Made by a program: the position numbers and the translations under genes
Source of the DNA: Agelas oroides
Lineage: Eukaryota > Porifera > Demospongiae > Agelasida > Agelasidae
Assembly: GCA_949130485.1 (NCBI GenBank)
Contig: OX422194.1
Location: 4,972,699-5,036,698 of the forward strand
Length of the DNA stretch: 64,000 nt
Reading direction: 5' to 3'
Part shown: one piece after another, positions 1 through 64,000 of the stretch
Layout of the letters: the number at the start of each line of letters is the position of its first letter
Position numbering within the stretch: position 1 is the stretch's first letter
The notes under the pieces: generated by a model
What the model was told of the DNA's origin: nothing
Seen by the model: only the letters and a program-made list of their open reading frames with translations
The model's database searches: none

Positions 1-2657
1 CTTATATTGGAGCTCAAGGTAGAGTAAATTTGGAAGTACATATTACAGGCAGTTTGCATTATGCATGCATCATTTTGGTACAGGTCCCATAGCTAACACA
101 GTCAGTGATTTCTGGCGGATGATTTGGGAGTATAGGCTGCCAACTGTTGTCATGCTAACCAGATGCTTTGAAGGGAAAGTAAGCACAGAGAAAAAATTTC
201 ACACTGGAGGAAAAGAAAACACTAGTACTGTCATAAAATTTCCTCCAACTGACTTAGAAAAAATGTGAGCAGTACTGGCCAAATGAAGTGGATGGCACGG
301 TGAACCCTGGCTGCAACCTCTCTGTCACAATGACCTCATTCCAGCCTTTTGCCGAGTATGTCATTAGGAAACTGCTGGTCAAAGATGTAAGTGGCACAGG
401 ATAGTGGCTTTGGTGCTGCATAAGTACAGCTTTAGCTGCTCTCCTCTGTAGATTTCCAACCCAGGTGAAAATTCATTGGAAGCGACCCAGTTACAGTACC
501 AGGCATGGCCGGACCATGGAGTACCCACCAATGCCATGTCTATTGTGAATTTCATCAAGCAGGTGAATAAGATCCACCCTTCCTCCCACCAGTATCCCCT
601 CTTGGTCCACTGCAGTGCTGGTGTGGGCAGGACTGGCACCTTCATTGTGCTGGATAGCATGATGCAGAGGATCAAGGCTGACGGGAGTATAAACATCTTT
701 GAGTTCCTGATGAAGTTGAGGACCAAACGAATGCAAATGGTGCAGCAAGAGGTATTTGAACTACAAGTTGCCCTAGTTTAATTTATGCTGTTTGTTTTGT
801 TTACATACTAAGTGGGAATTGATGAACTAGGCTGAACGCTTATTTCATCAGTGCCAGTATGTGTTCATCCATGATGCTCTGAATGAGCTGATTACGTGTG
901 GAGAGACGGAGATTGCAGCCGCTAATCTGAGGACTACCATTAACCACCTCTCCACACAAATAGAGGGCAAGGAGATTTCTGGATTTGAGCACCAGTTTCA
1001 GGTGTGGACCTAGGGTTATTCAGCAATGCAGTAGTTTGTGTGTACAAGTGAAGTGCTCATCTTAACAACACAGCTCCTGGAAGAAGTTTCTCACATGATT
1101 GAGGAAGTGGACTATACAGAGGCAAAGGCTTCTTCTAAGAACCGCTATGCTGACAAGCTGCCAAGTGAGCTAAGAAACACATTGCATAGTGGCTCTGGTC
1201 TCACTAAAACTTCATAATGTAGATGATGGGACTCGAGTTAGACTGAATCCAACACAAGTTCAGGGGTCTGACTACATCAATGCCAGCTTTGTCCAAGTAA
1301 GGATCTGTTACACGTTAGTTGGTTGATAGCCTAAATACTATCCCTTTCACTAAAGGTAATCATTTTCTACACAGGGCTACAGGCGGTATGGAGGCTACAT
1401 AGCTACCCAGGGGCCACTTCCATCCACAGTGAATGACTTTTGGCAGATGGTGTGGGAGAATGATAGCAAGTGTATTGTGATGTTATGCAGCCTGCAAGAA
1501 GATGGAGTGGTAAGTGATGCAGCATAGATACAAACTTGTTTACTTCAGTTTAGTCATCACTTTAGGACATGTGTCATTGCTACTGGCCTGGGAGGAAGGG
1601 AGAGAGTACCACTTATGGTGAACTTAGTGTCACTCTAGTGTCTGAGGAGAAGTGTGAAGATAGCATCATCAGGAAGCTTGAAGTCTCTGAGACTCCACCA
1701 CAGACTACAATACCAACTGTGAGACTTGAGGTCTACATAGTACAGAATAAAGCTAAGTATTATGATGTTTCTAATTTAGGCACATGCCAGAGCTCCCTTC
1801 ACTGTGACCCACTTCCAGTTTCTATGTTGGCCTGATTGTGGCCAGCCTCCTACCTCTTCCTCCCTGCTGGTGCTGATGGACAATGTCACAAAGGTGCAGA
1901 TGAGCACAGGAAACAAGGCCATTACTGTAATGTGCAAGTAAGTGTTATGGTGGTCCCACTTAACTTCATACTGTTCACAAGCCGTATGTTACATGTAGTT
2001 GCTATTTGAATAGTTGTAGCTTATAATCGCTAGTAGCCTAGCTAGGATAGTAGGAACTGTGGGCTGGGTACCTTGTTGTGTTTCATATGCAACAAAATTG
2101 GGCCTAATAAAAATGGCTACTTGGTGTTTTAGTGCACTGTCTTATAAATTGTGACATCTGTCTGCAGTCACACAACCGTCATGGCTTTCCCCTAGTTTAA
2201 TAACTTAGCTTCAAATTGTGATGTGGTGCTTGTCTGTGCAATAAGAACAAGGCCACTGCACTGTCCAATATGATGTAACCAGTCGTAACAGGTACCTGTG
2301 TCACACTTAACTTACACATTTTTTCACGCACATGATGTTTTCTCTATCCTCACTTTTTGACACTTACTCAGTGATGGTGTTGGTCGCACTGGGACCTTCA
2401 TCTGTATCTATACTCAGCTGGAGAAACTGAAAACTGAGGGTGAAGTGGACATCTTTCAGTCCATCAAGTCAGCACGCATACATCGTGCTGGACTCGTCCA
2501 GAGTGTGGTATGAGCATGCTCATGCAGTCAGTATCAGTTTCCAGTTGATGAAACCGTTTACCTTTTTCTACAGGAGCAGTACATATTGTGTCATATTGTG
2601 CTTGCTGATTTTGTGGACAGCTTCGAAACTTATGCCAACTTTAAGGAAGTAATGTGA
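1..2657 (+). CDS. Receptor-type protein tyrosine phosphatase A1, 3' part (rest of D1 and all of D2)
   Basis: The window opens inside a D1 exon. Exons by splice-site and phase match: 1-18, 84-178, 258-386, 452-751, 852-1001, 1074-1164, 1223-1296, 1375-1509, 1566-1718, 1780-1937, 2372-2507, 2574-2657 (stop TGA 2655-2657). D1 shows KKCEQYWP, the WPD loop (QAWPDHGVP) and the catalytic P-loop [11 protein letters not shown], so it should hydrolyse phosphotyrosine on the cytosolic side of the plasma membrane. D2 keeps a WPD motif and a CX5R motif (CNDGVGRTG, assembled across the intron at 1938-2371), but its P-loop His is Met and the phosphotyrosine-loop Tyr is Asn, so D2 is probably weak or regulatory. 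Compared with A2 and A3, three codons are missing before KNRY (exon 1074-1164 is 9 nt shorter). No stop or frameshift is seen in the part present. The 5' half lies outside the window. Confidence 0.9.
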
Positions 2658-3562
2658 TGCATCCTTTTTGTATGATTTGATGGATCCCTGTGTTCCACAT
2701 TTATTTTTACAATAACAAGTTGCATCTGAGACTCAGTACAGGAATACCCTGCATGATAGGTAGAATGTAGTTGCGTAGAACTGAGAGTTCACTTGACGGG
2801 GATTCAATTATAGACGTGAATTTAATATGCTCACTAGCTAGCCTTGTTCTCAGGCTGGCTCCCAGCTGGAGCTAAAGACATAGTAACACTAGGGCTCAAG
2901 AATGAGGTGTTGGCAGGTTGTAGGTGTAGAAAGGTTTGCTAGGGTCCTTGCTAGAGCAAAATCTGGTGCTATAGGGGATAATTAAGAGTACAAAATTGAT
3001 GTTTTAGCAAAACATTGATTTTGCTGACTTGATATAGATCTAATTATGTAACTTAGTAATAGTCAATTTTTCTCGATAACAGGTCTGATATCAGATGTGT
3101 GTGTCAGAATCAAATTCTGGCCTTTCTCCGCTTGGTGGCAAGTAGCTATTACCAAGCCTTGTGGGAGATGAGATTAAACATTAGGAGAAAGTGCACTGAC
3201 AGTGCTAGAGCTTTTACCCTTTAAACCCCATAGGGCAGTTTTGGTTACATACTACTGCACCTTACACACAGCTTCTGTGTCAGCAGAAAGGGTGGGACAG
3301 GTGGAAGTGGGTGAGGCAACTCACTGTGTGCTGTGCACATGTAGGCTTAGCTGTAAAAGTGCCATGATTGACACCGCCTGGGCCAACTCTCACCCTGGCT
3401 GCATGTAGCTATGGACTGGCTTAGAAAATGCTACTCTCACCTTTAGGGTGTTCAGCAGGACGGCTTCTTGGGTTCTGAGTGGGTGTTTGCCAACCGAGAA
3501 TGCTGACTATTGCATACTCTAAATGCATAGAATTCTTGCCTCATGTTGGAATAAAGAGAGAC

Positions 3563-3676
3563 TAGACATTTTGAGGCGAAAATAGAAAGTGAAAAGCACA
3601 AGCCAGGTGTCCTGGGTTCGAATCCCGGTGACTGCCAGTCTTTTCACTTTTCTCTATTTTCACCTCAAAACATCTA
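3563..3676. repeat. Short inverted-repeat element with tRNA 3'-half
   Basis: Arms of about 30 nt (3563-3596 and 3640-3676) are near-perfect reverse complements. The loop carries a B-box-like GGTTCGAATCC at 3615-3625 within a T-arm and acceptor-like stretch. No A box or 5' tRNA half is present, so it is not a tRNA gene. The same element is at 27968-28098. At about 60630-60667 only the left arm remains. Confidence 0.6.
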
Positions 3677-5727: not shown

Positions 5728-5818
5728 ATGTCCACAATGAAGTTGCTGTGTGTAATAGTCTTCATCCATATATTGACGGGATGTCAGTGTCAGAAAAGGG
5801 GACGAGGTCAGGCTAGAG
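5728..5818 (+). other. B1 signal-peptide exon with mutated donor
   Basis: ATG at 5728-5730 opens a hydrophobic leader (MSTMKLLCVIVFIHILTG) followed by a Gln/Gly/Arg-rich stretch; the exon is 91 nt and ends in phase 1, matching the phase-1 start of Ig1. The expected GC donor reads GA at 5819-5820, a single C-to-A change relative to 30349-30350 and 63085-63086. The only nearby GT gives phase 2 and a stop in Ig1. Confidence 0.7.
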
Positions 5819-6848
5819 GAAAGTGTGCTGAGTATAGCTAGACGTCTATGCAGACATTCAGTATACCCAGTAGAGGAGCGCCGCGAATCGCCGCGCCTAA
5901 AGGAGCAGCAAACTACCATACATTGTGCGGTTCCGTCTGTTGTCCAATTCTAATTCGCGGCTACTGCCAGCAAGTAGCTAATGTTGCAGTGCATGGGAAG
6001 GATTTTATGATCAATAATGGTAACCTCAAACTTGTTAACAAGTGCGATTTAGTGCGCCTTTTCTGCACTGGAACTCGACACTACATAGACACGCTAGTTG
6101 AGCGCTCTTATACTTGCCATGAGCTCCTACCGGTGTAAGCAGAAGAAAACGCATTGTGCATGTAACAGTTGTCTGATAGCGAAAGACATGAACTTTGAGG
6201 AAGATGGGGCGAAATTGAAAAATATACATTCAGCAAAATTTACCGCGTACGACAACGTTGCCGGCAAAACGGACCCTGCGCATGCAGATCAAGTCTACAA
6301 GCTGGACTGCATGAGGAAACTCAGCAAGTAATGTTAACATGATGAGAATTTCACAGATAAAAGCATCTATAACCAGTGCTATATGAGACAAGAAAAAGAA
6401 ACACACATTAAAACTGTAAAAAGATGTAGGGATGGCACACCAAAAAGTATGCAAACTAAGTAGGGATGATATAAAAGTGAAGGTAAAATACACAAAGCCC
6501 CATTCCTGCCATCTTTCTCACACTAGAGTGCAACTGTAGTGTAAAAGAATGTAGCCTGTATCCCTACATTATGGAATCTCTCTATAGCGGACACCATTGT
6601 GAACTAACATTTTGTCCCTGAGTTGTCCCTAAACCAGGGGCTTCCGGTATATTTTCGGTAGGCGTGGTACTGCGTAATCGGACCGTTGAGTACAACGCGG
6701 CTGCGTTTTTTTTATTATTTTTTTATCAAAAAACAAAATCCAAAATTTAATAATAAGCAAAAAATGAACCAAGTGAAGATACAACTGGAAAAGTCATGGT
6801 GGACAGATAAAAATAATAAGTGACAGGGAAGAGGTTTGTGTTCATGAG

Positions 6849-7484
6849 TTAAACATCAGGTGAAATGTTCGATTCGGCGTTAACGAGGTCGACCGCTGTG
6901 GGAATTCTGATGGCATGTCCGCACGACGATCGAGCTCCTCTGATGGACTGGATAGCAGAACGTAGGAGGGAGAAAGCCAGACTACAGCGCAGCCAGCGCA
7001 GTGTGCTGCTGTAGGGATGATCCCATTTTGAGGCAAGCAAGGAGGCCAATCTTTTGTAGAACGTGCTGGCTTCGTTAGCAAGTCCTCCCGTGGCGGAGAT
7101 CACTAGGGGGGTGAATGAGGCGTGTTCAACTTCTCTAATTCTTTGTTCATATGCACGCTTCTTCATCTGTTCGTGCTTTCTGTAGCAGGACGAGAGTTGA
7201 GTGTGTCTGTTCGACGGGGCATGGGGGTTGAACACCCTAACATCAAAGAAGGTTCTCTCAAAGGTCCCACCCCAGAATCCACTTGCTGCTATGTCTAGCC
7301 GAGCACCGTCTTGACGGTTGGCTGAGGCACCCGTCAGGGTTTCGTTTGACACAGGCTGTAATCCTGGCTCAATACACACGTCGTGGCACACCTCAGTGAG
7401 TAGAGTGGCCGTCAGGTTGCGAATCTCATCTACGTTTTCAGAGCTTTCCCTTGCTGTACGCTGGTGGGGAGGGCCAAGCAGTGG
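6849..7484 (-). mobile_element. Retroelement polyprotein C-terminal remnant
   Basis: An open frame of 211 codons runs leftwards with no good start of its own. It contains SGFWGGTFERTFFDVRVFNP, then an Arg/Lys-rich segment (YRKHEQMKKRAYEQRIREVE), then a Leu/Arg-rich end. I recognise this as the C-terminal part of reverse-transcriptase-type transposon proteins common in sponges and cnidarians; the DxxxGFW...FDVRV pattern suggests a nuclease-like fold. No reverse transcriptase motifs are in this window, so it is a fragment. The AT-rich stretch at 6700-6790 could be the element's 3' end. A second copy lies at 31437-31979. Confidence 0.6.
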
Positions 7485-7505
7485 CTAGTATTACGAGTTA
7501 CAACG

Positions 7506-7775
7506 CTAGTCTAATGTCAAGTTGTTAACTCCAGCAGTGATAGTGGACAATTTGGTCGATGAGTGTCCACTAAATCGGGGTCTTTCAGTACTGTTAGCGT
7601 ACAATTGGGAACACGAAAACTGTCCTTTATATGGAGTAGCGGGGTGTCCGCTGTTCAGGGATTGCTTAAGTATTGAGGTGAATTGAAGGACAGTGTCGGG
7701 ACTTTCGGAAGTGTCCATTATATCGTGGGTGTCCGCTGTTGAGATGTGTCCGTAAGCTGGGTTCCAATGTAGCAT
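7506..7775. repeat. Repeat with recurring TGTCC motifs
   Basis: The stretch has many TGTCC(A/G)CT-type words and is matched at 32096-32365. Similar words occur at 6570-6630. The style resembles non-coding ends of a DNA transposon, but no clean terminal inverted repeats were found. The 89-codon minus-strand open frame here has no recognisable features and is taken as chance. Confidence 0.35.
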
Positions 7776-7863
7776 TTACTGGGCATGCTTTTGGTGAGCT
7801 TTTGGATTAGCTCCGTCGTCGATTGTGTTTGTAAACACGTACACACACACAGACGATCTTATG

Positions 7864-7920
7864 TAGTCTCGCAGGCCCGACTCACTTCCGCTAGAGAAGT
7901 GGGTCGGGCCTGCGAGACTA
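7864..7920. repeat. 57-bp hairpin element with 9-bp target duplication
   Basis: Arms TAGTCTCGCAGGCCCGAC and its reverse complement close on a short loop. GATCTTATG flanks both sides (7855-7863 and 7921-7929), the mark of transposition. Present at the same site in B2 (about 32454-32510), so insertion predates the B1/B2 duplication. Confidence 0.65.
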
Positions 7921-8572
7921 GATCTTATGCGGGGTCGTCCCCTGTCACCACTGATGCTTCGATGCCTCTCGGCTTAGTATCAATACAAGCGCCGCTGATT
8001 TTCCTAGTACGCGTTCAGCGAAGCTGCAGTTCTTCGTCACAGTCGTCGCGATTGTCGACCTCACACGTAACATCGCGAGAGATGGCGTCGCCACCACCCC
8101 CAATTTTTCCTAGGATTACGTGTTCCACCTTTGACCTCCTCCGGGAAACTTGGCACCCCGTGGGAACTTGCGCGAACGTGGCCAGTAACAGTGACTGATG
8201 TGTTTCTGTTCCCGGACGTAACTAGCTTAGGCTGAGAAGTGTTTGATCAAAAACACTGAGTAGGGGGTGCATGATGTCCTAGGATCTTAGGTATGGGGTA
8301 CCTGAAATACTACCGAGATAGGGGGTGCTGGTTTTCCTGAGGGGAGGCCAATATTCGGAGAAATTGCATGGGGGTGCCAGATTTCAGGGGGGCATATGCA
8401 CGAGACTATTCGAGCAAACGCCCCCTCTCAACTTTTGCTTCAAAGTTGTGTGCAAAGGGGGGGGGGGGTATTTTCAAGAGATTACAGTACAATACCATTG
8501 CTATGTGTAGACATTCCATGTAGCTACACATATTAACTAGGTGGCAAAGGTCCTTTTCTTTTGGTTCCCCAG

Positions 8573-8905
8573 GTGGAGGTGTTGGGTTCTCGCTCAATGG
8601 TACAACATACCAGAACAACAGTCTTGTGACCCTGGAGTACATTGGTGAAGGTGATGCTGCCCTGCTCTGCATGACTGAGTACTCTACTTGTTGCAAACAG
8701 CCTGACAGAGGAAACTGGTTCCTTCCCAACGGAACTAGAGTTCCTAGCAGTGGTCAGCAGTGGGACTTCCACAGAACAAGAGGTAATATGACGGTAAGTC
8801 TGCACAGAAGGAGAGGTGGAGAGGATGGAGTTTACCGCTGTGAGGTACTCGATGCAATGAATATCACCCAGACCATATACATTGGAGTATACACAGCAGA
8901 CACTG
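8573..8905 (+). other. B1 Ig1 exon
   Basis: A 333-nt phase 1-1 exon, flanked by CCCCAG and GTGAGC. It encodes a V-like Ig domain: LLC at the B strand, an extra CC pair, GNWF, and the F-strand motif [10 protein letters not shown]. Several N-glycosylation sequons are present (NNS, NGT, NMT, NIT). Related exons: 19461, 21030, 33142, 43023 and 53217. Confidence 0.88.
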
Positions 8906-9271
8906 GTGAGCAGTACATAAATATACTACAGTGCTTATGTTGCAGATGAGTGATGACAGGAATAGTGGAGTTTGTATCATGGTGCATTCATCATCATCAC
9001 TGGTATGTGCCTTTGAATCTAGGTGAAAATGTTGCTCAGAAGGCAAAGGCCAGTGTTTGCATGCACACTCCACTCACAACCTGGAATATGTGAATGAAGT
9101 CATCAGTTATAACTAAAGGGATTTAAAATACTTTATGCTTGGACTTTGTTATAATTTTATCATCAGTGAAGCATTACTCACATATGCCAGTTGGTTGTGT
9201 TTCTATCTTTCACTCATATCACCATACAGGCATACTCTCATATGCCAATTCATGATATTTTCATCATACAG

Positions 9272-9843
9272 GTTCACCTAACATAACTAGTCTCACTTTC
9301 AATGGATCATCAAACACCCTCACCTGCACCTCCACTGGTGGACCTGCTACCACTGTCACCTGGAGGAGAGATGGTGTTGTGATAACTCCCAATACTACCT
9401 ACCAGCAGACCAAGACAGTAGTGGATCCTGTTGAGAGTACCTAATCAACTGACTAGCTACTCCATTAATTTTATCCACACATTTACTGCAGCCTGACCTT
9501 GTCCGTTTTCTTGGCAACATCCCCTCAAGATATGGATGAAAACTACTACACACATCAACTTCATTGTTGGCATTCTGAAGCTGCAATACGTAATCGTTCA
9601 TCGAGAATATATGGCACGGTACTACTGCAACGGTGTAAGGCAGCTGCGTAGCTCCACCCATCGACTATAAAAATGTAAGCACTCCTCCGGGAAGGAAGTA
9701 CGTCATCAACAGCCCTCCATAGGCTTATGAATGAGATGACCAGACAGTGCTCACCATTGACCCATCAGTGGGTCAGAGTGGCTTTGTGGGGACATACAAC
9801 TGCACAGTGGAGAATGCAAGGGGAAGATCATCAATGACAATAG
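9272..9843 (+). pseudogene. B1 Ig2 exon, split by insertion
   Basis: The exon encodes a second Ig domain (LTCTSTGG, VTWRRDG, then GTYNCTVENARG) and ends in phase 1. The intact B2 copy (33855-34130) is 276 nt. Here 296 nt (9444-9739) interrupt it and the first codon after the left edge is a stop. Both halves otherwise align in frame with B2. Confidence 0.85.
9444..9739 (-). other. Inverted insertion carrying a signal-peptide exon and its upstream DNA
   Basis: Read on the minus strand, this insert holds an ATG at 9573-9571, a leader ([18 protein letters not shown]) and then Gln/Gly-rich codons to 9486, a homologue of the family's signal exon. Upstream it has ATGGGTGGAGCTA, as in A-type promoters, while the bases just before the ATG match the B type. 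It is therefore a third, diverged version. No clear target duplication or terminal inverted repeat is seen. Confidence 0.75.
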
Positions 9844-11315
9844 GTGAGAACTGAAGCCCTCCATCCTGGCATTATGGCCTTGGTATAGTTACCAACATGT
9901 AACAGATTTTATATAAGATGTAATTACAATAAATAGTTAGCTTGTGTAAATGCGACAGAATTTGATGGTATAGGTACACAAATTGGTGCTGGGGCTTTGA
10001 AAAGTTTGTTATGAGGTTAAATGACTTCGGGGAGGAATGAATAATAGTGTTCAAACTCAGTCAGCTGGTGTCTGGAGGATCGTCTGGACTTCTCCCAGAC
10101 ATCCTAGCCTGTTTTGTGATAGCCCACTAGCTATTATAGCAAAGCGACTTGAGACAAGTCATGAAACATATTATGCAAGAGTTCTCAAAGCAAGCCTTAG
10201 GCAGGGAGTGATCCAAGCTGTTCTCTTGTGGGCTGTGGATGGGGAGTTCAAATAAACCAAAGCCTGATGGTGATCAGAAAGGGAACTTCCCTGAAGTCTG
10301 GTATTTTGAATTCAACAACAAAATGCTGGTTGTAATGCCTTACCAGCATACGTGTCCCACCCATTAGCCACAAGTGCCGCCTCACAATCCTATGGCTATA
10401 TACTGACAAAGTGTATGCACACACTCCAGTTCTTTGATCCATGCTGCTGCTAGTGCTGAGTTATTCTTCTTGATTTTCGCACCAGAAGGGTCTGGGAACA
10501 AAACCATAGGCCTACCACCTCCAGTAAATACTTGAGCTGCTTTGCCCAGCAGTATGCATCCCACTGTACTGTCCTGTTTTACAACCCACCACTTGTGTCA
10601 TAGTAGCTACCAAGTGTTGCCGTTTTCATTTCTCCATTTCCTGTTTCCCATTTCTCAATTTCCATGTCCCTTTCCCCCACCTCAGTATTTGTGCCATTTG
10701 TACCTCCTTCCTGAAATGTTTAAATGCGCTGATTTAAAAATTTACGATATATAGTTAATTGGCATGTGCCAATGCCAAGCAGGCAGAGTCTTGTGCCCAG
10801 ATCCACAGGACTAAATCTGGCAAACAAGCAATCAAACAACACACATGCTAGTGTGGGTCCTTTAGCTCACCCAAACTAGAGGTCTCCAAAGAATAGGTAT
10901 TCCACACTGCTTTACTATATGTTGGGAATGCAGACAGTAGTGCTGGTAGTTGCCAGAGAATGGTTGTTGGTATGCTTCTTTTGTCAGTAGGGTGTGTTTG
11001 ACTTGACATGCACCTATCTCTAAATACTTAACTGGTTTGTCATCATCTTTAATAGAGACACTCCTTAGCCATTTGTCACTTAGATACCACAAGGTAAGTT
11101 CCTGACTGAGAATCGCTAGTTGTTATCCTTCCAGTAAAAATATGGATGGTGCATTTCCTCCTCGCTTAATCTTGTTTCACCTACTCAAATTTTGCTTACT
11201 CTTGGTGTTTGACTTACTCATTGATAAATATTTTATAGCATGCAGTTTCATGAACACACCAAAATGAAGAAATAGTACAATCTTGTCATTGGTGTGTGCA
11301 GATATTTCACGTATA

Positions 11316-12199
11316 TGTTCCGCGCAATCTGAGAATTTGCGCAATCTCGAGATTGCGTTGCGCATTCTCAGAATCCCGAGATTGCGTTCTAATCTCGAGA
11401 TTGCGCAGGCAATCTGGAGATTGCGTAACACATGTGCGCAATCTGGAGATTGCGTAATATGTGTGCGCAATCTGGAGATGCGTAACACGTGTGCGCAATC
11501 TACGAACTTTGCCTGTACGCCCGACAGTGAGTGATCTACTGTGTAGCTCGCAGGATGGAAGACATCCTTGATAAGCGGCGTCTACCTCCATAGGAGGCAT
11601 ACTGCGATCTGGAAGAGTGAGTAATGCTGTGTATTGATGAGCAACAGAAGAGAAGGTCGCGTTCGAAGTTTGCCTGTCGATCGTAGTTGGCCACAGTCAG
11701 CTTATATGCCACACGCTACTGGTTCAATCGAGTGTATACTATCTAATTGTGTCAGCGACAGTTGACACGTACCTTCGCTGAAACTGTCAGCCATCTTTTG
11801 CGTGTATTATTGGTCATTTTCAGGTACACAGCGGGTACCCGCGTTTCCACCGTTGTAGCTTATTCCAACTTTACTAGCAGGACTCCTGACTACGTCCTGA
11901 GTAAGGCAGGTTTGTTTTCAACCAAGCTAAGCCAAACTATCATTGCCTGAACTCTGCTATTTTACAAGATATAACGCAAATTATGAATCAACACTACACA
12001 AAGTCGCAATTTTTTAGTAGCTTCTCGAGATGGTTTCTGCACATGCGCGTTGGGGTAAAAGAGATTGCGCACTATACTTGCGCAATCTCGAGATTGCGCA
12101 AGTATAGTGCGCAATCTCGAGATTAGAACGCAATCTCGGGATTCTGAGAATGCGCAACGCATTCTCGAGATTGCGCAAATTCTCAGATTGCGCGGAACA
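11316..12199. mobile_element. 884-bp foldback DNA element with TATA target duplication
   Basis: The ends TGTTCCGCGCAATCTGAG and its reverse complement are perfect, and the inverted match continues for tens of bases with multiple GCGCAATCTCGAGATTGCGC-type palindromic subrepeats. TATA flanks both ends (11312-11315, 12200-12203). B2 (about 35450) and C (about 45530) show the empty site (TGTA). No transposase frame is present, so it is non-autonomous. Confidence 0.82.
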
Positions 12200-12658
12200 T
12201 ATACATGTAATAACTAGGTGGCAGAGGTTCTGAACTCAAAGTTTCTGTTCAGCCACTTTCTTCAGTCAATATGACAGCCACTGTGAGCTCTCAACCTGCA
12301 GTACATGCCAACCTGCTGTGTGCAACTACTTGATTTAGCTTGCTAGATTCACGATGTAACGGTTAGGCCCTACCACTGAGTATTATGCTTACGACTGTAT
12401 GAACTGTTTAATACCCTGGAGTCTTGTAAACATGCCTCGGTGCAGACAAGGACATAGCTTTTTTTGCAACAGTATCCATCCATGCATGCATATCTGCTTA
12501 GGGTAAATAACATCAAGCCTCTGAAGTAAGCACCCTTAGCACACAGAATCAGTAATGTATAGTAGCTGAATGGTATTACTGGAGTGAACTTGAGCAAGCT
12601 ATGCACTTAATTTGAGTGTCCTTAGCAAAAGCCTTCACATCATGTTTCACCTCCCTGT

Positions 12659-12767
12659 TGCCTTTGATTCATGGCATGTGGAAACACTGCATTGTACTAC
12701 AATGCAGTGTTTCCACATGCTATGAATCAATACATGCAGTGTTTCCACATGCCGTGAATCAAAGGCA
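12659..12767. repeat. Long palindrome (hairpin)
   Basis: Arms start TGCCTTTGATTCATGGCATG and contain GTGGAAACACTGCATTGTA; the right arm is the reverse complement with an extra internal repeat. Cleaner 78-bp versions are at 35912-35989 and 45985-46062. It is probably a fossil foldback element. Confidence 0.65.
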
Positions 12768-12977
12768 GCCAGTGGCATGAAGCTCATTGTTGTTTGTCCT
12801 ATGCATCCCCTTGAACACACTAGATTCTTGGGGGTTCATATTCAACCTTAAAAAAAACATTGATAGCTATTTGATACTGGTGAACTTGCAGCTATCCTGT
12901 GCAGTACAAGTCTAGGGGAGTAATTGTTTTCACCAAGTATGTAAGACCTGAAGTGGATTATGTCTACATCATCGGTC

Positions 12978-13100
12978 AAGGGGCAGATCCGGGGGGGTGC
13001 ATAGGATGCAAGTGCACCCCCCCTTCCTCCCAGCAATCTTCACTGTGTGTACCAACCCCCCCCCCCCAACAACTCTTTTCCATCTCTAGATCCGCCCCTG
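12978..13100. repeat. Small inverted-repeat element, GGGGC(A/G)GATC ends
   Basis: It begins AAGGGGCAGATCC and ends GATCCGCCCCTG, with an inner GTGCA/TGCAC palindrome beside G and C runs. Copies are at 36270-36383 and 46343-46454. The same inner palindrome and similar ends occur in the 660-bp element at 61978-62637, suggesting one family. Confidence 0.5.
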
Positions 13101-14181
13101 AGGTCATAACTTTGAGAACGTATAATTTCATTTTAGTGTCCTTGACTTTGCTGAGTGAGCTTGTTGAACTTGTGAATCATTGGACTATACCAACCTGAAA
13201 GCTCTGTAGCTTGCGACCCCTCAAAATTAAAAGATGTAGATAAAGTCCTGAGCCCTATGGTTAATGTTTAATATTATATTCCAACTTTGTTTCTTGAGTT
13301 GTGTGCATGGTGACTGCACAAAAGTTGCCAACCACCATACCTAAGAACTATAAAAGTTAGCCATAAGACTCAAGATTTTATGCTTGAGTTTTGTTTCACC
13401 TCTCAATTGCCTTTCATTCACTGTGGAAACACCGGATCACTGGCACTGGCAGCATGAAGCTCATGGTTATCAAAAATTCTATGATACGTTCTTAAAAATC
13501 TTTAGTAACACTAATTTTACGTATAATTCTCAGCCATGCCTTTATGCAAAGTGTCTTTTCACTGAATATGTTTGTTTAGGTGCGTGTTTGTTAAAACGTT
13601 GAAGTTGTTTACATAGCACTATCCACTGATGTGAACTAGGGTGTAGAAATGTTAGTGTGTAGCTGCCATTTAGTTTCTATGTATAGTATGGTAGCACTAT
13701 AGTAGTGCACCTTGAGTAGCAGCATCAGTCCTAGTCTTGTTCCCAGACTGCCACCATTTATTGGTTCTTTAGTTTTGGGTTCACAGTATAACAGTAGGAG
13801 AGGCGAAGAATAGGGGGAGGCCTGGATTAAACACTATTGCGTGAAGGATATCAGATGGACATGAGGTGGACATAGTGGGGATGCCTAACTGCTAATACAT
13901 ACTCATTAAACCTGAGAGTGAGTTTCTTACCATGTTAGCTAAGTACTCTTGCTTGGATGAATGCCTGGAGTGCTGCCTATAGCAGCGGACCAGTGCATAG
14001 GCATCAGCTTCACCCTATGTGTAAGTCTGCATTTATAGCATTCCAAGGCTATTCCTGTTTCTTGCTGCTCTTCTGCTTCTGTGTAATATTGTGAACTGAA
14101 GAAAGAAGAGACCTGGTAACAAGGCCTGTGAGTTGATAGTGTTAGTCTCCAAAACATTGTTGACCATTCTTTCTCCAACAG

Positions 14182-14614
14182 TCTCATCATCCATCCCCTC
14201 TGCTGCCACTCCTGGAGCAACCACACTTACAGCTAACCAAGGTTTTATTCCTCTTCTATTCTATGCCTCTAAATCTTGTCATAAATATTGCGCACACCCA
14301 ATGAACTTGACAGTTTCAAATACTTGAACAATTTTATGTTAACTAGATTGTACTGCAAACTCTTCACTATAGGGTCCACACTTGGTCCAGTAGCTGCAGT
14401 CATATCCCTCTTTCCTTTGGCAGTGGTGGCATGTGGCTTAATAGCTGTTGGAATGATAGCAATATGGAGGTACAAATATTCTTGCTATGTTATGCTGTCC
14501 CAGTCTCACTCCTTCAACTCATGCTTGTCCCTCCAATTACCATACAGGCTTAAACAAAGAGAAAGCCATCCTTCTGACCATCTCAAGCCTCAAGGAATGA
14601 ATGTGAATGAATAA
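14182..14614 (+). other. B1 stalk, transmembrane and tail exons
   Basis: Stalk exon 14182-14241 (Ser/Thr/Pro/Ala-rich), transmembrane exon 14373-14469 (GSTLGPVAAVISLFPLAVVA onward, ending IWR), tail exon 14548-14614 (RLKQRESHPSDHLKPQG then four residues and TAA). The 78-nt intron between the last two (14470-14547) is open in frame, so retention would add 26 residues including SCYVML. Confidence 0.8.
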
Positions 14615-14810: not shown

Positions 14811-15030
<220 letters not shown>

Positions 15031-16914: not shown

Positions 16915-17005
16915 ATGCTCACAATAAATTTGCTGTCTGTAGTAGTTTTCATCCATATCTTGATGGGATGTTGGGGTCAGGAAAGTGGACAAGGTGAAGC
17001 GACAG
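16915..17005 (+). other. A2 signal-peptide exon with GC donor
   Basis: [20 protein letters not shown] is a typical leader. The exon ends ACAG followed by GCAAGT, the consensus GC-AG donor, in phase 1. The next GT, four bases later, would give the wrong phase and a stop in Ig1. Confidence 0.75.
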
Positions 17006-20000
17006 GCAAGTGTGCTGAGTATAGCTAGACATCTATATAGCTACATGTAGAAGTATAACCAATAGATACTCGGTAGAGGAGCGTATGAGCGCCGGGAATC
17101 GCCGGGCGATGGAGCGGCAAACTACCGTAAATGGTGCGGTTCCGTGTGTTGTCAAATCGCAGCTACTGCCAGCAGGTAACTGATGTTACAGCAGGAAGGC
17201 TCTTGAGCAGCCCTCAAACTTGTTAACAAGTACGCAAATGCGAAAAAGAGTTTTCTGCACTGGAACTCGACACTACACGGATCGCTAGTTGGACGCTCCT
17301 ACTCGCCGTGGTGAGTGTTTCATAAGCTAGTCCTGCTGTGGTAAGGGGAACACCGTTATTTAGATACTTTGTGATATGTGAACCCCTCGCACTAAATTGA
17401 GTGCGTATGGGGATCTCCTTATAGCAGTATATAGAGATCCCAGAACGCAGAAGAGATGGATTTGTTTGTAGAATATCGAGCGCTCACTTGACGTAACACG
17501 CGCGATGGGCTGCGGGGTACTTCATGGGTGATATGTAAAACAAAACAAGTACCTACAGTTGTCGGAAGATTCGAGGATATACAAATTGCCCATAAGACGT
17601 ACGTACGTACCCTGTACGTGCAGATCAAATCTACAAGCACGGACTGAGTAAGTTTTTCATAATGGATGGAAGGAAGTTACCCTGTCAGCGTAGAGAAGTG
17701 TAAAGGGGAATAGAATTCTCGCTTGGTGAGGCTGAAAGTATAGGCGTAGGAAGCAAATTAGAAGCATAGAGACTATACTGTGCAACGCGAAGCGCGGCGT
17801 AAAAAATGTTAGAATGAGCGGCGGCGAATTTTTCAAAAGTGGCACCTTCACACTACAAAATAAAACCTTTTTTCAGGATTGTATAATATCCTTAGTCTCG
17901 TTCCCAGGCCTTCCCCGCCTCCAGTTTTTGGTCACTCGCGATATTCTAGCCACGTTCTGAGACCTTCGCAACCGTCCTGCAATATTCAATTTACGTAGAA
18001 AGCAAAACTTAGTCGTCGTTCCAAGGAGACCGCCAAGCTTTTCGTCGCTTGGAGTAGATCTATAGTGGTCAATGCTGATTTGACAAAATGTATTATAGCA
18101 AGGCCATCCCACTGGCAAGATTTTGTTCGCTTTACTTTAAGCGGAAATGAATGTAATAGACACACAAACAGCTAACTGCTGATGTAACTGTGCATGTACC
18201 CAGGGTATTACTACCGTATTTCAAACTTTACGTGTATACACGCACGGGCTCGTCTATTTCCTTCAGGACTGTGTAGACCGGTGTCATGGGGATAAAGTGA
18301 CTCCGCCTTCCAGTGACCCCCCAAGTCATTTCACCCTAGGGATCAGTGACCCCCAGTTTGGTCATTTCATCCTAGGGATGAGTGACCCCCAGTCATTTCA
18401 CCCTACGAATCAGTGACCCCCAATCATTCTACCCTAGTGTGGATGACCCCCCCAGGTGAAATGTGGATGCCTGGGTGAAATGACTCCCCATGGAGTAAGT
18501 AAAGGCCATGTAGGGTCCTGTGACTCTCTATGCTTTTACTGCTCTATCCAAGCTGATAATTTTCTACACATGAAATACATTTAAATTGTGTGGAGTATAC
18601 TCTTTATTTGTCGTGCTATAGCTTTTGCGGTTTTGCTTACGTAAAGTATGTATGTAGTTATGTAATGATTATTTGACTGGCGCTTGTCAATCTGCAGAGT
18701 AAACATGCACAAACAGGTGTTCCACATAGATTCTGTATACTACACCTGTGGAACACTGGAAGCTGCTTGGCACTGTATTTATGTGTACCTTCCGTCATGA
18801 CTCGATCACAGTACAATTTCCTCGTATATAATACTTGGGATGCAAGAGCTAGCTCTCTGCATCCACAGAATGACCCACAGCTCTCCCAGTGATGTTAATG
18901 TTGTAGTTGTTATACCATTCATTGACAAGTGTGTAGACCTCGCAATACGCCGTGCTACTACCAACAGTTAGGTACAGGACATGCAACACTCTTTATATAT
19001 AAATTGACGTTTGGTGGGGAGTGACTCTACTCCCGGGGGAGTCCTACTATTTATACCACTGAACATTCCTTAGTTGGTGATTATTGTGATTCAGAGTAGC
19101 TAATAGGTGGACCGAATGGGCATCAAAGGAGATTAGAAAATGGAATGGAATTTGGCGATTGAACGTTTTGTTTTGAATGAATCGTCACGGATGCCAGGGG
19201 TACGGGAGAAGCAGGTGGCTGGCGATGCAGTTGATGAGTTTTGGGGAGTGTATCATCCCCATTATGTTGAGCAATATATCAACAAGCAATGGGATGAATG
19301 TGTTGCACGGGCGAGAGATAATGCATGAACGTAGCCAGATACGGGGCTGTATGATGACCTACACATTTTTTCATGGGGGCGGAATATGAAGTGTGTAGAC
19401 AGAGTGACGGATCATGGTTTTGGACAGAAGACGTTTGATGTAGGATCTCTTCCTTCGCAGGTGCAGGTGATGTCTGGTTCTCACTCAGAGGTACAACATA
19501 CCAGAACAACAGTAATGTTACCCTGGAGGACATTGGTGAAGGTGATGATGCTCTGCTCTGCATGACTGAACAATCAGCTTGTTGCCGACCTCCTGCTAGT
19601 AACACCACAGGGAACTGGTACTTTCCCAATGGAACTAGAGTTCCTAGCAGTGGTGGCCAGTGGGACTTCTACAGAACAAGAGGTAATATGACGGTACTTC
19701 TGCAGAGGAGGAGAGGTGGAGAGGATGGAGTTTACCGCTGTGAGATACCTGATGAGCTGAATGTCACTCAGACCATATACATTGGAGTGTACACAGCAAG
19801 CACTGGTGAGTGGGACATGTATGTTAATTCCTCCCACTGCATTGACATACTGAGATTAAGCTTGAGATCGCAGACATAGTTTTAGTAACATAATGCTGGA
19901 ATGATGCGAAGTGTGATGGAATGCATCATTCAATAATCAGCAATACCACTCACTTTCTGTTACAGATTATTTGTGGGATGAGTTGGTCGATTGGTTGTGG

Positions 20001-38358: not shown

Positions 38359-40516
<2,158 letters not shown>

Positions 40517-46500: not shown

Positions 46501-48109
46501 CTTTGCTGAGTGAGCTTGTTTAAGTTGTGAATCATTGGACTATATACCAACCTGAAAGCTCTGTAGCTTGCGACCCCTCAAAATAAAAAATGTAGATATA
46601 TGTGCAACTCACATAGCACGTATATAACTTTGCATAAATGTATGGAGAAGTTCTATCCCTGTTGTTGTGATGATACTGATTAGTATGGCAATTTTGAGAG
46701 TCTATTCAACCTTGAAATATAAAGTCCTGAGCCCTATGGTTAATGTTTAATACTATATTCCAACACTGTTTCTTGAGTTGTGTGCATGGTGACTGCACAA
46801 AAGTTGCCAACCACCATACCTAAGAACTATAAAAGTTAGCCATAAGGCTCAAGATTTTATGCTTGAGTTTTGTTTCACCTCTCCATTGTCTTTCATTCAC
46901 TGTGGAAACACTGGATTACTGGCACTGGCAGCATGAAGCTCATGGTTATCAAAAATTCTATTAAAAACACTAATTTTACTTCTAATTCTCAGCCATGACT
47001 TTATACAAAGTGTCTTTTCACTGAATATGTTTGTTTAGGTGTGTGTTTATTAAAACGTTGAAGTTGTTTACATAGCAATATCCACTGATGTGAACTACAC
47101 ACTTGACCATTGAACTAGGGTGTAGAAATGTTAGTGTGTAGCTGCCATTTAGTTTCTATGTATAGTATGGTAGCACTATAGTAGTGCACCTTGAGTAGCA
47201 GCATCAGTCCTAGTCTTGTTCCCAGACTGCCACCATTTATTGGTTCTTTAGTTTTGGGTTCACAGTATAACAGTAGGAGAGGTGAAGAATAGGGGGAGGC
47301 CTGGATTTGAAACACTATTGTGTGAATGATATCAGATGGACATGAGGTGGACATAGTGGGGATGCCTAACTGTTAATACATACTCATTAAACCTGAGAGT
47401 GAGTTTCTTACCATGTTAGTTAAGTACTCTTGCTTGGATGAATGCCTGGAGTGCTGCCTATAGCAGCGGACCAGTGTATAGGCATCAGCTTCACCCTATG
47501 CGTAAGTCTGCATTTATAGCATTCCAAGGCTATTCCTGTTTCTTGCTGCTCTTCTGCTTCTGTGTAATATTGTGAACTGAAGAAAGAAGAGACCTGGTAA
47601 CAAGGCCTGTGAGTTGATAGCGTTAGTCTCCAAAACATTGTTGACCACACTCCATTCTTTCTCCAACAGTCTCATCATCCATCCCCTCTGCTGCCACTCC
47701 TGGAGCAACCACACTTACAGCTAACCAAGGTTTTATTCCTCTTCTATTCTATACCTCTAAATCTTGTCATAAATATTGCGCACACCCAATGAACTTGACA
47801 GTTTCAAATACTTGAACAATTTTATGTTAACTAGATACCTGATTGTACTGCAAACTCTCCACTATAGGGTCCACACTTGGTCCAGTAGCTGCAGTCATAT
47901 CCCTCTTTCCTTTAGCAGTGGTGGCATGTGGCTTAATAGCTGTTGGAATGATAGCAATATGGAGGTACAAATATTCTTGCTATGTTATGCTGTCCCAGTC
48001 TCACTCCTTCAACTCATGCTTGTCCCTCCAATTACCATACAGGCTTAAACAAAGAGAAAGCCATCCTTCTGACCATCTCAAGCCTCAAGGAATGAATATG
48101 AATGAATAA
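40517..48109 (+). CDS. Chimeric short-tailed receptor C (A-type 5' half, B-type 3' half)
   Basis: Exons: A-type signal 40517-40607 (GC donor), A-type Ig1 43023-43352, B-type stalk 47670-47729, transmembrane 47868-47964, tail 48043-48109 (stop TAA). The sum is 645 nt, 214 residues, open and phase-consistent: a one-Ig receptor with a phosphatase-type ectodomain but no phosphatase. A second A-type signal exon (44056-44149) lies in the intron behind its own promoter fragment; joined to the stalk it would give a 105-residue protein without Ig. B-type DNA starts at about 44168. Ig1 differs from A3 mainly at ENIGEDND, LTEYSTCCIQP and GNMMV. The last intron (47965-48042) is 78 nt and open in frame. 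Confidence 0.78.
41916..42040. repeat. 31-bp minisatellite
   Basis: About four units in the C first intron, same motif as 18311-18485. Confidence 0.75.
43023..43352 (+). other. C Ig1 exon
   Basis: 330 nt, phase 1-1, preceded by CTTCCCAG. A-type Ig domain with [12 protein letters not shown]. Confidence 0.87.
43730..44167 (+). other. Duplicated A-type promoter and signal-exon cassette
   Basis: This 438-bp segment matches the region around 50.2-50.7 kb, with TATATA near 43930, ATG at 44056 and GC donor at 44150-44151. Its left edge joins the DNA after Ig1; its right edge (GAGTATA|CGACAG) joins B-type intron sequence matching 9955 onward. Confidence 0.8.
47670..48109 (+). other. C stalk, transmembrane and tail exons
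   Basis: B-type exons, almost identical to 37598-38037 but with CAG in place of the in-frame TAG of the last intron. Confidence 0.8.
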
Positions 48110-50584
<2,475 letters not shown>

Positions 50585-53500: not shown

Positions 53501-56500
53501 GCAATGGATGTCACTCAGACCATATATATTGGAGTATACACAGCAAGTGAGTGGGACATGTACATTCCTCCTGCTGCATTGCCATACTGAGTTTAAGCTT
53601 GAGATTGTTATGCAGGCATAGTTTTTGTAATATCTGGGCAGAAGCATAACGCTGGATTGATGCAACACATAGAAGTGTGATGGAGTGCATCATTCAATGA
53701 TCAGCAATACCACTCACTTTCTGTTACGGATTATTTGTGGGATCAGTTTGGTCACTTTGGCTTTTCTTACTTTTTTAATACTAGTACTGTTAAAGTTTAT
53801 GTGAGCAAGAGGAAATACGCCTGTTTGTGCTAATATTGCATTGTTTACTAGCAATTATCCAGGGCTCCAAATGCTTGGAGAGGTCCCTAGTCTGAAAGAC
53901 AAAACTGTGAAAGTAACCCCCCACCCAAATTCTACTCCTTCAGGAATAACCTCTGCATACATTGAAACCCTAGCCCCTTCCCCAGGTGTTCCCTGTATTC
54001 AGTTTTACGTACTGTCAGCAATCAACAACTTGAGACAGGTAAAGCTAAGAAAGGCAATGCTATGTACACACATATAGAAGTGCTAAATGGGAAATGTATA
54101 TGACGACTATATAACATCAGTGCACCATATAACTCACTCACTCTCACCTCACAATGCACTTCAACTTAATTGTGGGGAGACAGTTCTCTGTTGGAGGTGA
54201 TCATCATTAACCAAACTTATTATCGCCTGTATTTGTTTTCTGTTCATGGAGCGTTCTGCCTCACCAATATACTCACACCCTGCTCACACTTGACCCACCA
54301 TGTCATAGACTAAGTATAACTTGATGCTGCCACAAGGCAAATATTGGGTTTCACATATGTATGCTCTGTACGATATCCTAACAATGCAGCAAAGTCTGGG
54401 GGCTAACCTGGACATCATATATGTTTCTACAGCAGTGAGATCGTATGAGCTTTATTATTGTGTACATGTACGAGTCTAAACTGCATGCCAAGATGCACCC
54501 AGTGACCTGAAAGTCTTGGCTTACTACAAACAACGGTTATTAGACCATACTCTGTTATGTACACAATGCTTCAGGGTTGTATAAGATGCTTGCTTAGGTA
54601 CCACTTAACTTAACAGTTTCTTTTATGGAAAACTTCAAGTGAACCATTAAGTCTACTGTATATGGGAGGTATACCGATCCCAATAAGGGTGTTTGCCATT
54701 TAGCACCTCTTGTTGGTGACCAAAGTTTTAGTTCATAGGGTATGTGCACCATGGTACCAGCCAATATGTATTCAGATTGGATGTATATTGCTTCCTCTGG
54801 CCTGTGTATCTGTTATTTGGGGTAATTACATAGAACCTGCATCTTGGAATGTAGGTGTATAATAAGTTAATTATAAGGAGAAGGTCTGTTTAGGACTATA
54901 AAGTGTCATTGGATTTTAACATGCCACACATCTCCACTTCTGCTGAGGTCTAGTACTTGAAACTTCACCCTAACCAATTAGCAAGCATTGAATAGTTACA
55001 AGTGAACACCTGAGAATTGCTTGCAGTGTCAGAATGGAGCCCTTACAAATCTTTCAAAGCCTATTTGTGCAAAGGAGGAGAGAAAGAGCCCATTCAGTGC
55101 TGAACAAGGCCTTTCTAGGGCCAGCTGCAGCAACTGCTTATTGGTTTTTATTGTCTACCAACTTCCCCCTCGTTCACTTCTTCTGTTAGTACAGAACCTA
55201 TCTTCCAAAACACATTGCACCAAATGACATTATCAAGCTAGAATTTGTACTGTAAATGAAATCAAAAGGTTAAATATTTGCACTTAGCTTGGAGTGGGGA
55301 AGTTTAACGGTATTTAGAAGGACCCTGCCTGTTCAATGCGTTCATTGTGAGGTTTTAACTTATTGACCATTCTATGCACCTAGCTACATGTATATAACGT
55401 TGCATAAATGTATGGCAGTTCTATCCCTGTTGTTATGATGATGCTGATTATTATGGCAATTTTGAGAGTCTATTCGACTAAAGTCCTGAGCCCTATGGTT
55501 AATGTTTAATACTATATTCCAACTTTGTTTCTTGAGTTGTGTGCATGGTGAGCGCCCAAAAGTTGCCAACCACCGTACCTAAGAACTATAAAAGTTAGCC
55601 AAAGGCTCAAGATTTTATGCTTGAGTTTTGTTATTTCACCTCTCCATTGTCGTTCATTCACTGTGGAAACACTGGATTACTGGCACTGGCAGCATGAAGC
55701 TCATGGTTATCAAAAATTCTATGATTAGTTATTAAAAATCCTTAGTAACACTAATTAATATGGTTTACTTCTAATTCTCAGCCATGCCTTTATACAAAGT
55801 GTCTTTTTACTGAATATGTTTGTTTAGGTGTGTGTTTGTTAAAACTTTGAAGCTGTTTACAGCTTTAAGCCTTTGTCTAACCCTTCGTGGGGTACAACCC
55901 TTGTCAGGCAGATCACAAATATCATTATAGGGTCATGAATCTCATTAGCAATGTCCATTATTGGAGTCGAGTGCATTTCGGGGTCATGGTTCTTGCTAAG
56001 AGCCATGCAAACACTGGCAGCAGCCACATCTCTGTGTGGTAAACTTTATACTTGGCACACTCCGACTGCATCTGTAAACAGAACTCTCATGAATATCATT
56101 AAGTGGCTGTTTTCTGGGCTCTTGTGCTCTCCCACTACTATAGTGTTGACTACATGGATATCAACTGAAGCACCAAAAGGTGTAGCAGATGAAGTTGTTG
56201 CTGGAGCTGTTGCTGGAGCTGTACTCAGTGTGATAGTTGTGGTGGTATTTGTAACAGCAGTTGGAGTAGTAATATGGAGGTACACTCACTGTTGTGTAAA
56301 TACTCTCTCAATCTCCGTCCTTGAACTCTACTTTACCTTCACCACACAGACTAAGACAGAAAGGAATGATGTCATTCCTTGATAGTGTTCACATCAAGGT
56401 TCATTCTACATCATATGATGACAGTGAAGCCAACCCCAACAATGATCAATGCAATGAAATGACAGTGGAAGCATCTACAGAAGGTAAACAAAGTTCCATG

Positions 56501-62700: not shown

Positions 62701-62993
62701 ACGTGACGGTGGGAAGGCTTGGTAACGAGGGTACAGGCTCGCAACATTTCACGTATTATAAAATTCGCTCTTTCGCTTATGCAATGTGCATAAATCAGTG
62801 CCTAGTCTCGCAAGCCACACCCTTCGCAGAGAGGAAGGGTCTGGTCACGCTGCAGCTGACGAGTTGTCCCCGAGGAACGCAAATTATCACGGATAATACA
62901 CTATACTTACGTAAGTAGCATATCATCCATGGATCTCCACAGAAATTCTTTCAAGTGTTTATGGACTACGCATCTTTTGATTGAAGCTTCAGA
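59749..62993. other. 3' flank of A3 and upstream region of B3
   Basis: Copy of the flank after A1 and A2, but about 0.5 kb is deleted at 60667 and the 660-bp element is inserted at 61978. Conserved block at 61384-61411. Confidence 0.6.
61978..62637. mobile_element. 660-bp non-autonomous DNA element
   Basis: Ends CAGTGGCGGATCTAG and CTAAATCCGCCACTG are inverted repeats, flanked by TCATC on both sides (61973-61977, 62638-62642). B1 and B2 have the uninterrupted site (for example near 5390). No transposase frame. The right part has an inner TGCATTTGCA palindrome between G and C runs. The ends resemble hAT-type elements, but the 5-bp duplication is short for hAT. Confidence 0.75.
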
Positions 62994-64000
62994 ATGTCCA
63001 CAATGAAGTTGCTGTGTTTAATGGTCTTTATCCATATCTTGACGGGATGTCGGTGTCAGAAAAGCGGACGAGGTCAGGCTAGAGGCAAGTGTGCTGAGTA
63101 TAGCTAGACGTCTATGCAGACATTCAGTATACCCAGTAGAGGAGCGCCGCGAATCGCCGCGCCTAAAGGAGCAGCAAACTACCATACATTGTGCGGTTCC
63201 GTCTGTTGTCCAATTCTAATTCGCGGCTACTGCCAGCAAGTAGCTAATGTTGCAGTGCATGGGAAGGATTTTATGATCAATAACGGTAACCTCAAACTTG
63301 TTAACAAGTGCGATTTAGTGCGCCTTTTCTGCACTGGAACTCGACACTACATAGACACGCTAGCTGAGCGCTCTTATACTTGCCATGAGCTCCTACCGGT
63401 GTAAGCAGAAGAAAACGCATTGTGCATGTAACAGTTGTCTGATAGCGAAAGACATGAACTTTGAGGAAGATGGGGCGAAATTGAAAAATATACATTCAGC
63501 AAAATTTACCGCGTACGACAACGTTGCCGGCAAAACGGACCCTGCGCTAGCCTCGTTCCCAGCCCCCGCCCAGCTTTCCGTCGCTTGCAGTACGGAAAAG
63601 CGGAGCCTGGGAACGAGGCTAACCCTGCGCATGCAGATCAAGTCTACAAGCTGGACTGCATGAGGAAACTCAGCAAGTAATGTTAACATGATGAGACTTT
63701 CACGGATAAAAGCATATAACCAGTGCTATATGAGACAAGAAAAAGAAACACACATTAAAACTGTAAAAAGATGCGGGGATGGCACACCAAAAAGTATGCA
63801 AACAAGGTAGGGATGATATAAAAGTGAAGGTAAATACACAAAGCCCCATTCCTGCCATCTTTCTCACACTAGAGTGCAACTGTAGTGTAAAAGGATGTAT
63901 CCCTACAATGGAATCTCTCTATAGCGGACACCATTGTGAACTAACATTTTGTCCCTGAGTTGTCCCTAAACCAGGGGCTTCCGGTATATTTTCGGTAGGC
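62994..64000 (+). CDS. Short-tailed receptor B3, 5' end only
   Basis: Signal exon 62994-63084 (MSTMKLLCLMVFIHILTG), phase 1, with a normal GC donor at 63085-63086. It lacks both the B1 donor change and the B2 deletion. The rest is first-intron sequence; Ig1 would lie about 2.5 kb beyond the window edge. B-type identity rests on the match to B1 and B2. Confidence 0.65.
63547..63621. mobile_element. 75-bp foldback element with 8-bp target duplication
   Basis: CTAGCCTCGTTCCCAG and its reverse complement bound the insert, and ACCCTGCG flanks it on both sides (63539-63546, 63622-63629). B1 and B2 have the empty site. The 8-bp duplication suggests a hAT-type transposase. Confidence 0.8.

Follow-up and report, generated by a model that had tools for sequence, protein, structure and literature searches.

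A 64,000-nucleotide stretch of the genome of the sponge Agelas oroides (GenBank assembly GCA_949130485.1, contig OX422194.1, forward-strand positions 4,972,699 to 5,036,698), which we call the window, contains a tandem array in which genes for a receptor-type protein tyrosine phosphatase (RPTP; type A) are interspersed with genes for phosphatase-less receptors (types B and C) that carry a similar outermost immunoglobulin (Ig)-like domain, Ig1. All lie on the + strand in the order A0-B1-A1-B2-C-A2-B3, an arrangement put forward in an original prediction made from the letters alone and borne out by window self-comparison, exon recurrence and gene models. The best reading of the sequence, to which we give about even confidence, is that a recently expanded tandem RPTP family is interspersed with paralogues retaining the outermost Ig1 and ending in a 22-residue tail, the two classes together forming a paired family of receptors and decoys; a role in recognition would be a further inference.

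The receptor array is real. Self-comparison resolves the window into repeated pieces of two blocks, at 90-99% identity (mostly 93-98%):

1-9443, 24424-34026 and 57079-64000: block X, the back of an A gene and the front of a B gene
9950-19112, 34441-42691 and 44477-52894: block Y, the back of a B gene and the front of an A gene

These kilobase-scale repeated blocks, together with splice sites that are AG at 55 of 55 internal acceptors and GT at 55 of 55 internal donors over A0, A1, A2, B1 and C, rule out a chance origin. B2 also has AG at 5/5 acceptors and GT at 5/5 donors, yet its Ig1 is out of frame with the first donor. Sites in A1 and B2 were hand-picked as AG and GT, and their independent support lies in recurrence in the other copies and in the frame being kept. 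Spacing from gene to gene is regular (2.3-3.2 kb), modelled introns span 49-5276 bp, and the outermost genes are truncated, A0 by the window start and B3, of which only the signal exon is present, by the window end. Tandem mis-joining of alleles was considered and rejected, since pairwise differences of ~3-7% among the three block X copies exceed what two alleles alone could give; partial mis-joining could still have occurred.

Two complete phosphatase receptors and one partial copy, with their signal, stalk, transmembrane (TM), juxtamembrane and protein tyrosine phosphatase (PTP) exons, make up type A:

84..2657, +: A0, partial phosphatase receptor, exons P5-P15, with D1 from mid-domain, D2 and a stop codon ending at 2657
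16915..27106, +: A1, complete phosphatase receptor, 20 exons, 843 amino acids (aa)
16915-16993, +: A1 signal exon
19461-19805, +: A1 Ig1 exon
21030..21374, +: A1 second Ig1 exon, phase 1-1, inclusion of which preserves the frame
22979-23020, +: A1 stalk exon
23464-23575, +: A1 TM exon
23655-23788, +: A1 juxtamembrane exon
23927-27106, +: A1 PTP exons P1-P15
50585..59748, +: A2, complete phosphatase receptor, 19 exons, 821 aa, modelled without a stalk exon
50585-50666, +: A2 signal exon
53217-53546, +: A2 Ig1 exon
56180-56279, +: A2 TM exon
56350-56483, +: A2 juxtamembrane exon
56566-59748, +: A2 PTP exons

In the models, type A places two PTP domains, D1 and D2, downstream of one hydrophobic TM exon. 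The A1 model was built by hand from three-frame translations and script-checked; its splice sites are AG at 19/19 acceptors and GT at 19/19 donors, and its protein contains two Y_phosphatase stretches (Pfam PF00102, E 1.3e-149, 496.7 bits). Canonical sites are likewise found at 18/18 acceptors and 18/18 donors of A2 and, in A0, which retains the last 11 exons, at 10/10 of each. The second Ig1 of A1 sits in a 1570-bp unit that is tandemly duplicated (19170-22307) at 98.98% identity, with two changes between the Ig1 exons, one synonymous, the other nonsynonymous. The first AATAAA or ATTAAA past the stop lies at 516 nt in A0, 483 nt in A1 and 54 nt in A2.

D1 carries the WPD motif and the catalytic HCX5R signature in A0, A1 and A2, with A1 aligned to RPTP alpha across both. 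D2 retains WPD and the loop Cys and Arg (LCNDGVGRTG in A1 and A2, MCNDGVGRTG in A0), and may be weak or inactive because the loop His is missing. The phosphatase exons are maintained by purifying selection, as indicated by ratios of nonsynonymous to synonymous change (dN/dS) over P5-P15 of 0.37 for A0-A1, 0.21 for A0-A2 and 0.21 for A1-A2 (Fisher P 0.006, 2.7e-5 and 2.0e-5, respectively).

Among solved structures, the A1 catalytic region matches RPTP alpha (6uzt) and LAR-type phosphatases best. Assignment of type A to one vertebrate RPTP subtype was rejected, the scores for alpha, LAR, S, gamma and kappa being too close. Like other tandem-PTP RPTPs (PTPRA/PTPRE, the LAR family, CD45), the A receptors combine a single TM segment with a D1 bearing the catalytic signature and a divergent D2; unlike them, they have a very short ectodomain of one or two Ig1 domains and sit in a multi-gene array with phosphatase-less twins. 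The LAR ectodomain comprises several Ig and FN3 domains, and Ig ectodomains are usual in adhesion RPTPs. The presence of Ig ectodomains and the catalytic affinity to RPTP alpha and LAR types would fit a conventional RPTP cluster for adhesion or development whose sister genes are truncated, lacking any immune or self-recognition role. We consider this possibility unlikely; it overlaps the other readings, so that the likelihoods given here do not sum to one. Against it stand the recent multi-copy expansion, the chimeric gene and the apparent ectodomain exchange described below, features that also occur, though not exclusively, in recognition families such as CEACAM (PMC2832619).

The phosphatase-less genes comprise two complete B genes, the start of a third, and C:

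5728..14614, +: B1, 211 aa if Ig2 is skipped
5728-5806, +: B1 signal exon
8573-8905, +: B1 Ig1 exon
from 9272, +: B1 Ig2 exon, split after ~9443 by an insert
9444..9739, no strand: insert in the B1 Ig2 exon, ~296 bp, edges uncertain by a base
14182-14241, +: B1 stalk exon
14373-14469, +: B1 TM exon
14548-14614, +: B1 tail exon
30259..38037, +: B2, 308 aa with the donor at 30352
30259-30336 (or -30352), +: B2 signal exon
33142-33474, +: B2 Ig1 exon
33855-34130, +: B2 Ig2 exon
37598-37657, +: B2 stalk exon
37796-37892, +: B2 TM exon
37971-38037, +: B2 tail exon
40517..48109, +: C, 210 aa, without Ig2
40517-40595, +: C signal exon, A-type
43023-43352, +: C Ig1 exon, A2-like
43779..44167, +: stray second A-type start region in C, with a signal exon at 44056-44137, adjoining the chimeric junction
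47670-47729, +: C stalk exon, B-type
47868-47964, +: C TM exon, B-type
48043-48109, +: C tail exon, B-type
62994..63072, +: B3 signal exon, start of a further B-type gene truncated at the window end

Each of B1, B2 and C brings a signal exon, an Ig1, a stalk, a TM and a terminal exon of its own, and none has a phosphatase. Their tail is a near-identical run of 22 aa, RLKQRESHPSDHLKPQGMN(V/M)NE, without tyrosine, and their TM segment, as read from the sequence, contains zero charged residues; stalk, TM and tail taken together show 1-3 changes in 74 codons. Each tail is followed by a long array of GACAGG hexamers (14809-15026, 38395-38625 and 48509-48727), preceded in turn by a GAAT tetramer array inside which the B and C stop codons lie.

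The gene types proposed in the original prediction need some amendment. Type A, described as signal-Ig-TM-PTP-PTP, has that architecture with its two phosphatase stretches, except that A1 holds two Ig1 exons and a stalk and the A2 model has no stalk. Type B, described as signal-Ig-Ig-TM-short tail, has the signal, Ig1, stalk, TM and 22-aa tail, but the Ig-Ig arrangement is intact in only one of the two complete genes (B2), Ig2 being split in B1. C, which the prediction names in the gene order, is phosphatase-less with its own signal, TM and stop, but it lacks Ig2 and is an A/B chimera.

We also considered whether the B exons belong to the A units, serving them as alternative 5' or terminal exons, one gene then giving phosphatase and phosphatase-less forms. 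Exon phases would permit this: Ig and stalk exons are 1-1, and the B and A TM exons both end in phase 2, fitting the A juxtamembrane exon, so that read-through splicing from B to A would keep the frame. However, each of B1, B2 and C comes with a separate ATG-signal exon, TM and stop, with an AATAAA or ATTAAA past the stop in all three (at 54 nt in B1 and B2 and 34 nt in C); the gene spacing is regular; and joining a B TM exon to the next A juxtamembrane exon would require introns of ~9 kb (B1-A1) or ~18 kb (B2-A2), well beyond those modelled. We judge this arrangement decidedly improbable.

Returning to a paired family of separate genes, the two classes appear to have exchanged their ectodomains. 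The predicted homology of signal exon and Ig1 across types was confirmed by cross-copy exon comparison, and upstream DNA proved to be shared as well, with B1 and A1 collinear over 4647-5124 versus 16036-16535 (68.8%) and 5715-6110 versus 16902-17301 (72.8%). A and B Ig1 exons are 86-93% identical in DNA and 78-89% in protein, with divergences between classes of 6.7% (B1-A2), 13.5% (B1-A1) and 9.2% (B2-C). Noncoding 5' DNA common to B1 and A1 diverges by 20.5% and 23.2%, and the immediate 200-bp flanks of Ig1 differ by 52.8-61.8%, resembling random 200-mers (median 58.3% over 30 pairs taken from the window, of which one or more were homologous, minimum 4.2%). BLAST matches between A and B Ig1 end within ~15 bases of the exon edges. 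Moreover, Ig1 is not sorted by class, A2 and B1 differing at 22 of 327 sites as compared with 33 of 330 for A2 and A1, and A2 and B1 share an identical 103-bp run within the exon (P=0.0032 by shuffling, the lowest of 10 pairs; ~0.03 corrected).

In gene C, a signal exon of A type and an Ig1 resembling that of A2 are followed by stalk, TM and tail exons of B type. The Ig1 of C differs from that of A2 at 14 sites, and at five of these (exon sites 54, 55, 69, 88 and 92) A2 matches B1 and not A1; these five, read by eye, fall within 39 bp (permutation P=0.013). A further patch lies in an intron of A2:

55387..55861, no strand: A2 intron patch, 475 bp, 87% identical to B-type intron 36545-37000 and unaligned in A1

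The exon-confined Ig1 likeness, the 103-bp run, the intron patch and the chimera together point to recombination between the A and B classes. Among possible causes of the exon-confined similarity we favour gene conversion of Ig1, with intron replacement as an alternative.

Ig1 itself is probably a divergent, V-like Ig domain, judging from its C...W...DGVYRC pattern, which we take to be an Ig-type motif, and from a weak profile match in the PDB. All five matches of a five-copy Ig1 profile to the PDB were Ig-domain proteins, zig-8 being the best (E 8.3e-4), followed by NCAM2 (three) and CD7. Scanned alone, 0/5 Ig1 copies gave a Pfam match, even at E 10, and the B2 model gave a sub-threshold Lep_receptor_Ig match at residues 14-41 (E 0.093). 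An AlphaFold model of Ig1 based on five close window sequences had low confidence (predicted local distance difference test 43.0, predicted template modelling score 0.33). The Ig2 of B2, by contrast with these sub-threshold results, is an Ig domain by sequence, with Ig_3 (E 8.5e-12) and I-set (E 5.3e-8) both above the Pfam cut-off. In five of five scans, pattern matches to Ig1 or Ig2 in prokaryote contigs and to Ig1, Ig2 or the P7 phosphatase exon in virus contigs were not confirmed as relatives. The sponge aggregation factor family has a domain set of Calx-beta and Wreath; none of its domains was among the Pfam matches for A1, B2 and C.

Whether B and C do anything is a separate matter, as unequal crossing-over among tandem phosphatase-receptor genes could have left them behind as functionless by-products, truncated or in decay. 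An insert splits the B1 Ig2 exon; it bears a signal-exon region in inverted orientation, 80-87% identical to copies in the window, and reading through it meets a stop codon. The B2 signal exon is 1 nt shorter than that of B1, which leaves Ig1 out of frame with the first donor. C lies at a duplication junction and has retained the stray A-type start region, and the dN/dS of Ig1 between A and B (0.38-0.57 over 6 pairs) indicates mild constraint only. Nevertheless, the reading frame can be kept despite either lesion: without its phase 1-1 Ig2 exon B1 still gives an in-frame protein of 211 aa, and the alternative B2 donor at 30352 restores the frame and gives 308 aa. The splice sites and the stalk-TM-tail region are also kept in B1, B2 and C, though the copies are recent, and Ig1 of A-B pairs changes more per synonymous than per nonsynonymous site (Fisher P 0.064 for A1a-B1, 0.014 for A1a-B2, 0.058 for A2-B1 and 0.037 for A2-B2). 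On balance we consider a by-product origin unlikely.

The original prediction likened the array to paired receptors known from animal immune and allorecognition clusters. The genes are clustered, with like ectodomains and unlike cytoplasmic parts, and the signs of exchange agree with that comparison, but several observations weigh against a functional receptor-decoy pairing. Both complete B genes carry a lesion, and for this reason the B genes may be decaying. The polyadenylation-type signals beside the B and C stops fall within the GAAT microsatellite and could be there by chance, and the stalk-TM-tails are too alike for a test of selection. Ig1 of A2 and C differ by 13 nonsynonymous changes versus 1 synonymous, which is not significant (Fisher P=0.32), and positive selection there was not supported, the exon (14/330) being no more divergent than all flanks (64/1476, Fisher P=1.0) or near flanks (23/760, P=0.36). 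Site 131 of the same exon shows the reverse of the five clustered sites, C matching B1 and A2 differing. The faint fold support for Ig1 and the phases open to read-through splicing count on the same side. Finally, an activating paired receptor is expected to bear a tail of the immunoreceptor tyrosine-based activation motif (ITAM) type or a charged TM residue, and B and C have neither. With no tyrosine in its tail and no charged TM residue for an adaptor, B looks like a decoy and not an activating arm. If B and C are expressed, the locus would be a variant of the paired-receptor theme; otherwise it would be a recombining phosphatase-receptor cluster with debris.

Mammalian inhibitory paired receptors recruit a phosphatase through an immunoreceptor tyrosine-based inhibitory motif (ITIM), whereas the A receptors have one built in. 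Otherwise the sponge genes resemble CEACAM1/CEACAM3 and Siglec-11/-16, whose members are likewise related to each other, similar in their Ig ectodomains and dissimilar in their cytoplasmic parts. The ligand-binding domain of CEACAM1 and its ITAM-bearing relatives is kept alike by gene conversion and recombination (PMC2832619), the extracellular parts of Siglec-11 and Siglec-16 are alike through gene conversion (PMC5701461), and CD300A/C are termed paired receptors (PMC12447643). Neighbouring genes are also paired in a recognition locus of Botryllus, where every fester-family gene adjoins a gene for a signalling co-receptor (FcoR); fester and uncle fester have no known signalling domains and the FcoRs have signalling tails (PMC12065747). 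The FcoRs differ from the sponge receptors in having Ig and sushi domains and ITIM/hemITAM tails, where the sponge array has an Ig1 common to both classes and would signal through an in-built PTP.

According to the same review, proteins proposed to act in allorecognition are not conserved across the three principal invertebrate models, one of which is sponges (PMC12065747). A review of the Ig superfamily describes adhesion molecules in sponges and, in the text consulted, does not mention phosphatases (PMC11999971), and a paper on R3 phosphatases reports an Amphimedon R3 sequence with a PTP domain that also resembles PTPRF and PTPRG (PMC5336234). No such phosphatase/phosphatase-less array appeared among the titles and abstract openings listed from open-licence literature, which is weak evidence of absence.

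A receptor-decoy family of this kind might work as follows. The Ig1 of A would bind a cell-surface or soluble ligand, and A, gated by clustering or by ligand, would dephosphorylate intracellular tyrosine kinase substrates and so damp kinase signalling, acting as an inhibitory receptor with an in-built phosphatase in place of ITIM recruitment. B and C, acting as decoys or dominant-negative partners, would share the ligand of A or associate with A via Ig1, and would set the threshold. Conversion and unequal crossing-over would keep the two sets of ectodomains alike, and the alternating order combined with unequal crossing-over could give rise to new decoys such as C. The sequence shows the gene anatomy, the constraint on the phosphatase and the chimera, whereas ligand, pairing, inhibition and decoy role are inferred. 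A bolder version, which we regard as doubtful, holds that this is a recognition system of an early-branching animal, with a phosphatase-bearing inhibitory receptor matched gene by gene with phosphatase-less decoys, to which crossing-over repeatedly passes the partner's current ectodomain, C recording one such event.

If B and C are expressed, a receptor phosphatase would itself serve here as the inhibitory arm of a paired-receptor system. If true, this would bear on inhibitory receptor signalling without ITIM-SHP coupling and, in a sponge, on which receptors read self, and the locus is a small and concrete target for population sequencing.

The introns of the array contain additional features. 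Minus-strand open reading frames occur in the first introns of B1 (6849-7484, 211 aa) and B2 (31437-31982, 181 aa), without a Pfam match; across the seven minus-strand frames tested (101-211 aa), 0/7 matched at E 0.1. The B1 stretch 11312-12202 has no counterpart of at least 200 bp in B2 or C by self-comparison, and 29-bp tandem repeats lie in a B1 intron at 11409-11501 and 12061-12124. A 31-bp minisatellite is present in the first intron of A1 (18311-18437, 3.9 copies), C (41916-42036, 3.9 copies) and A2 (51995-52242, 7.9 copies).

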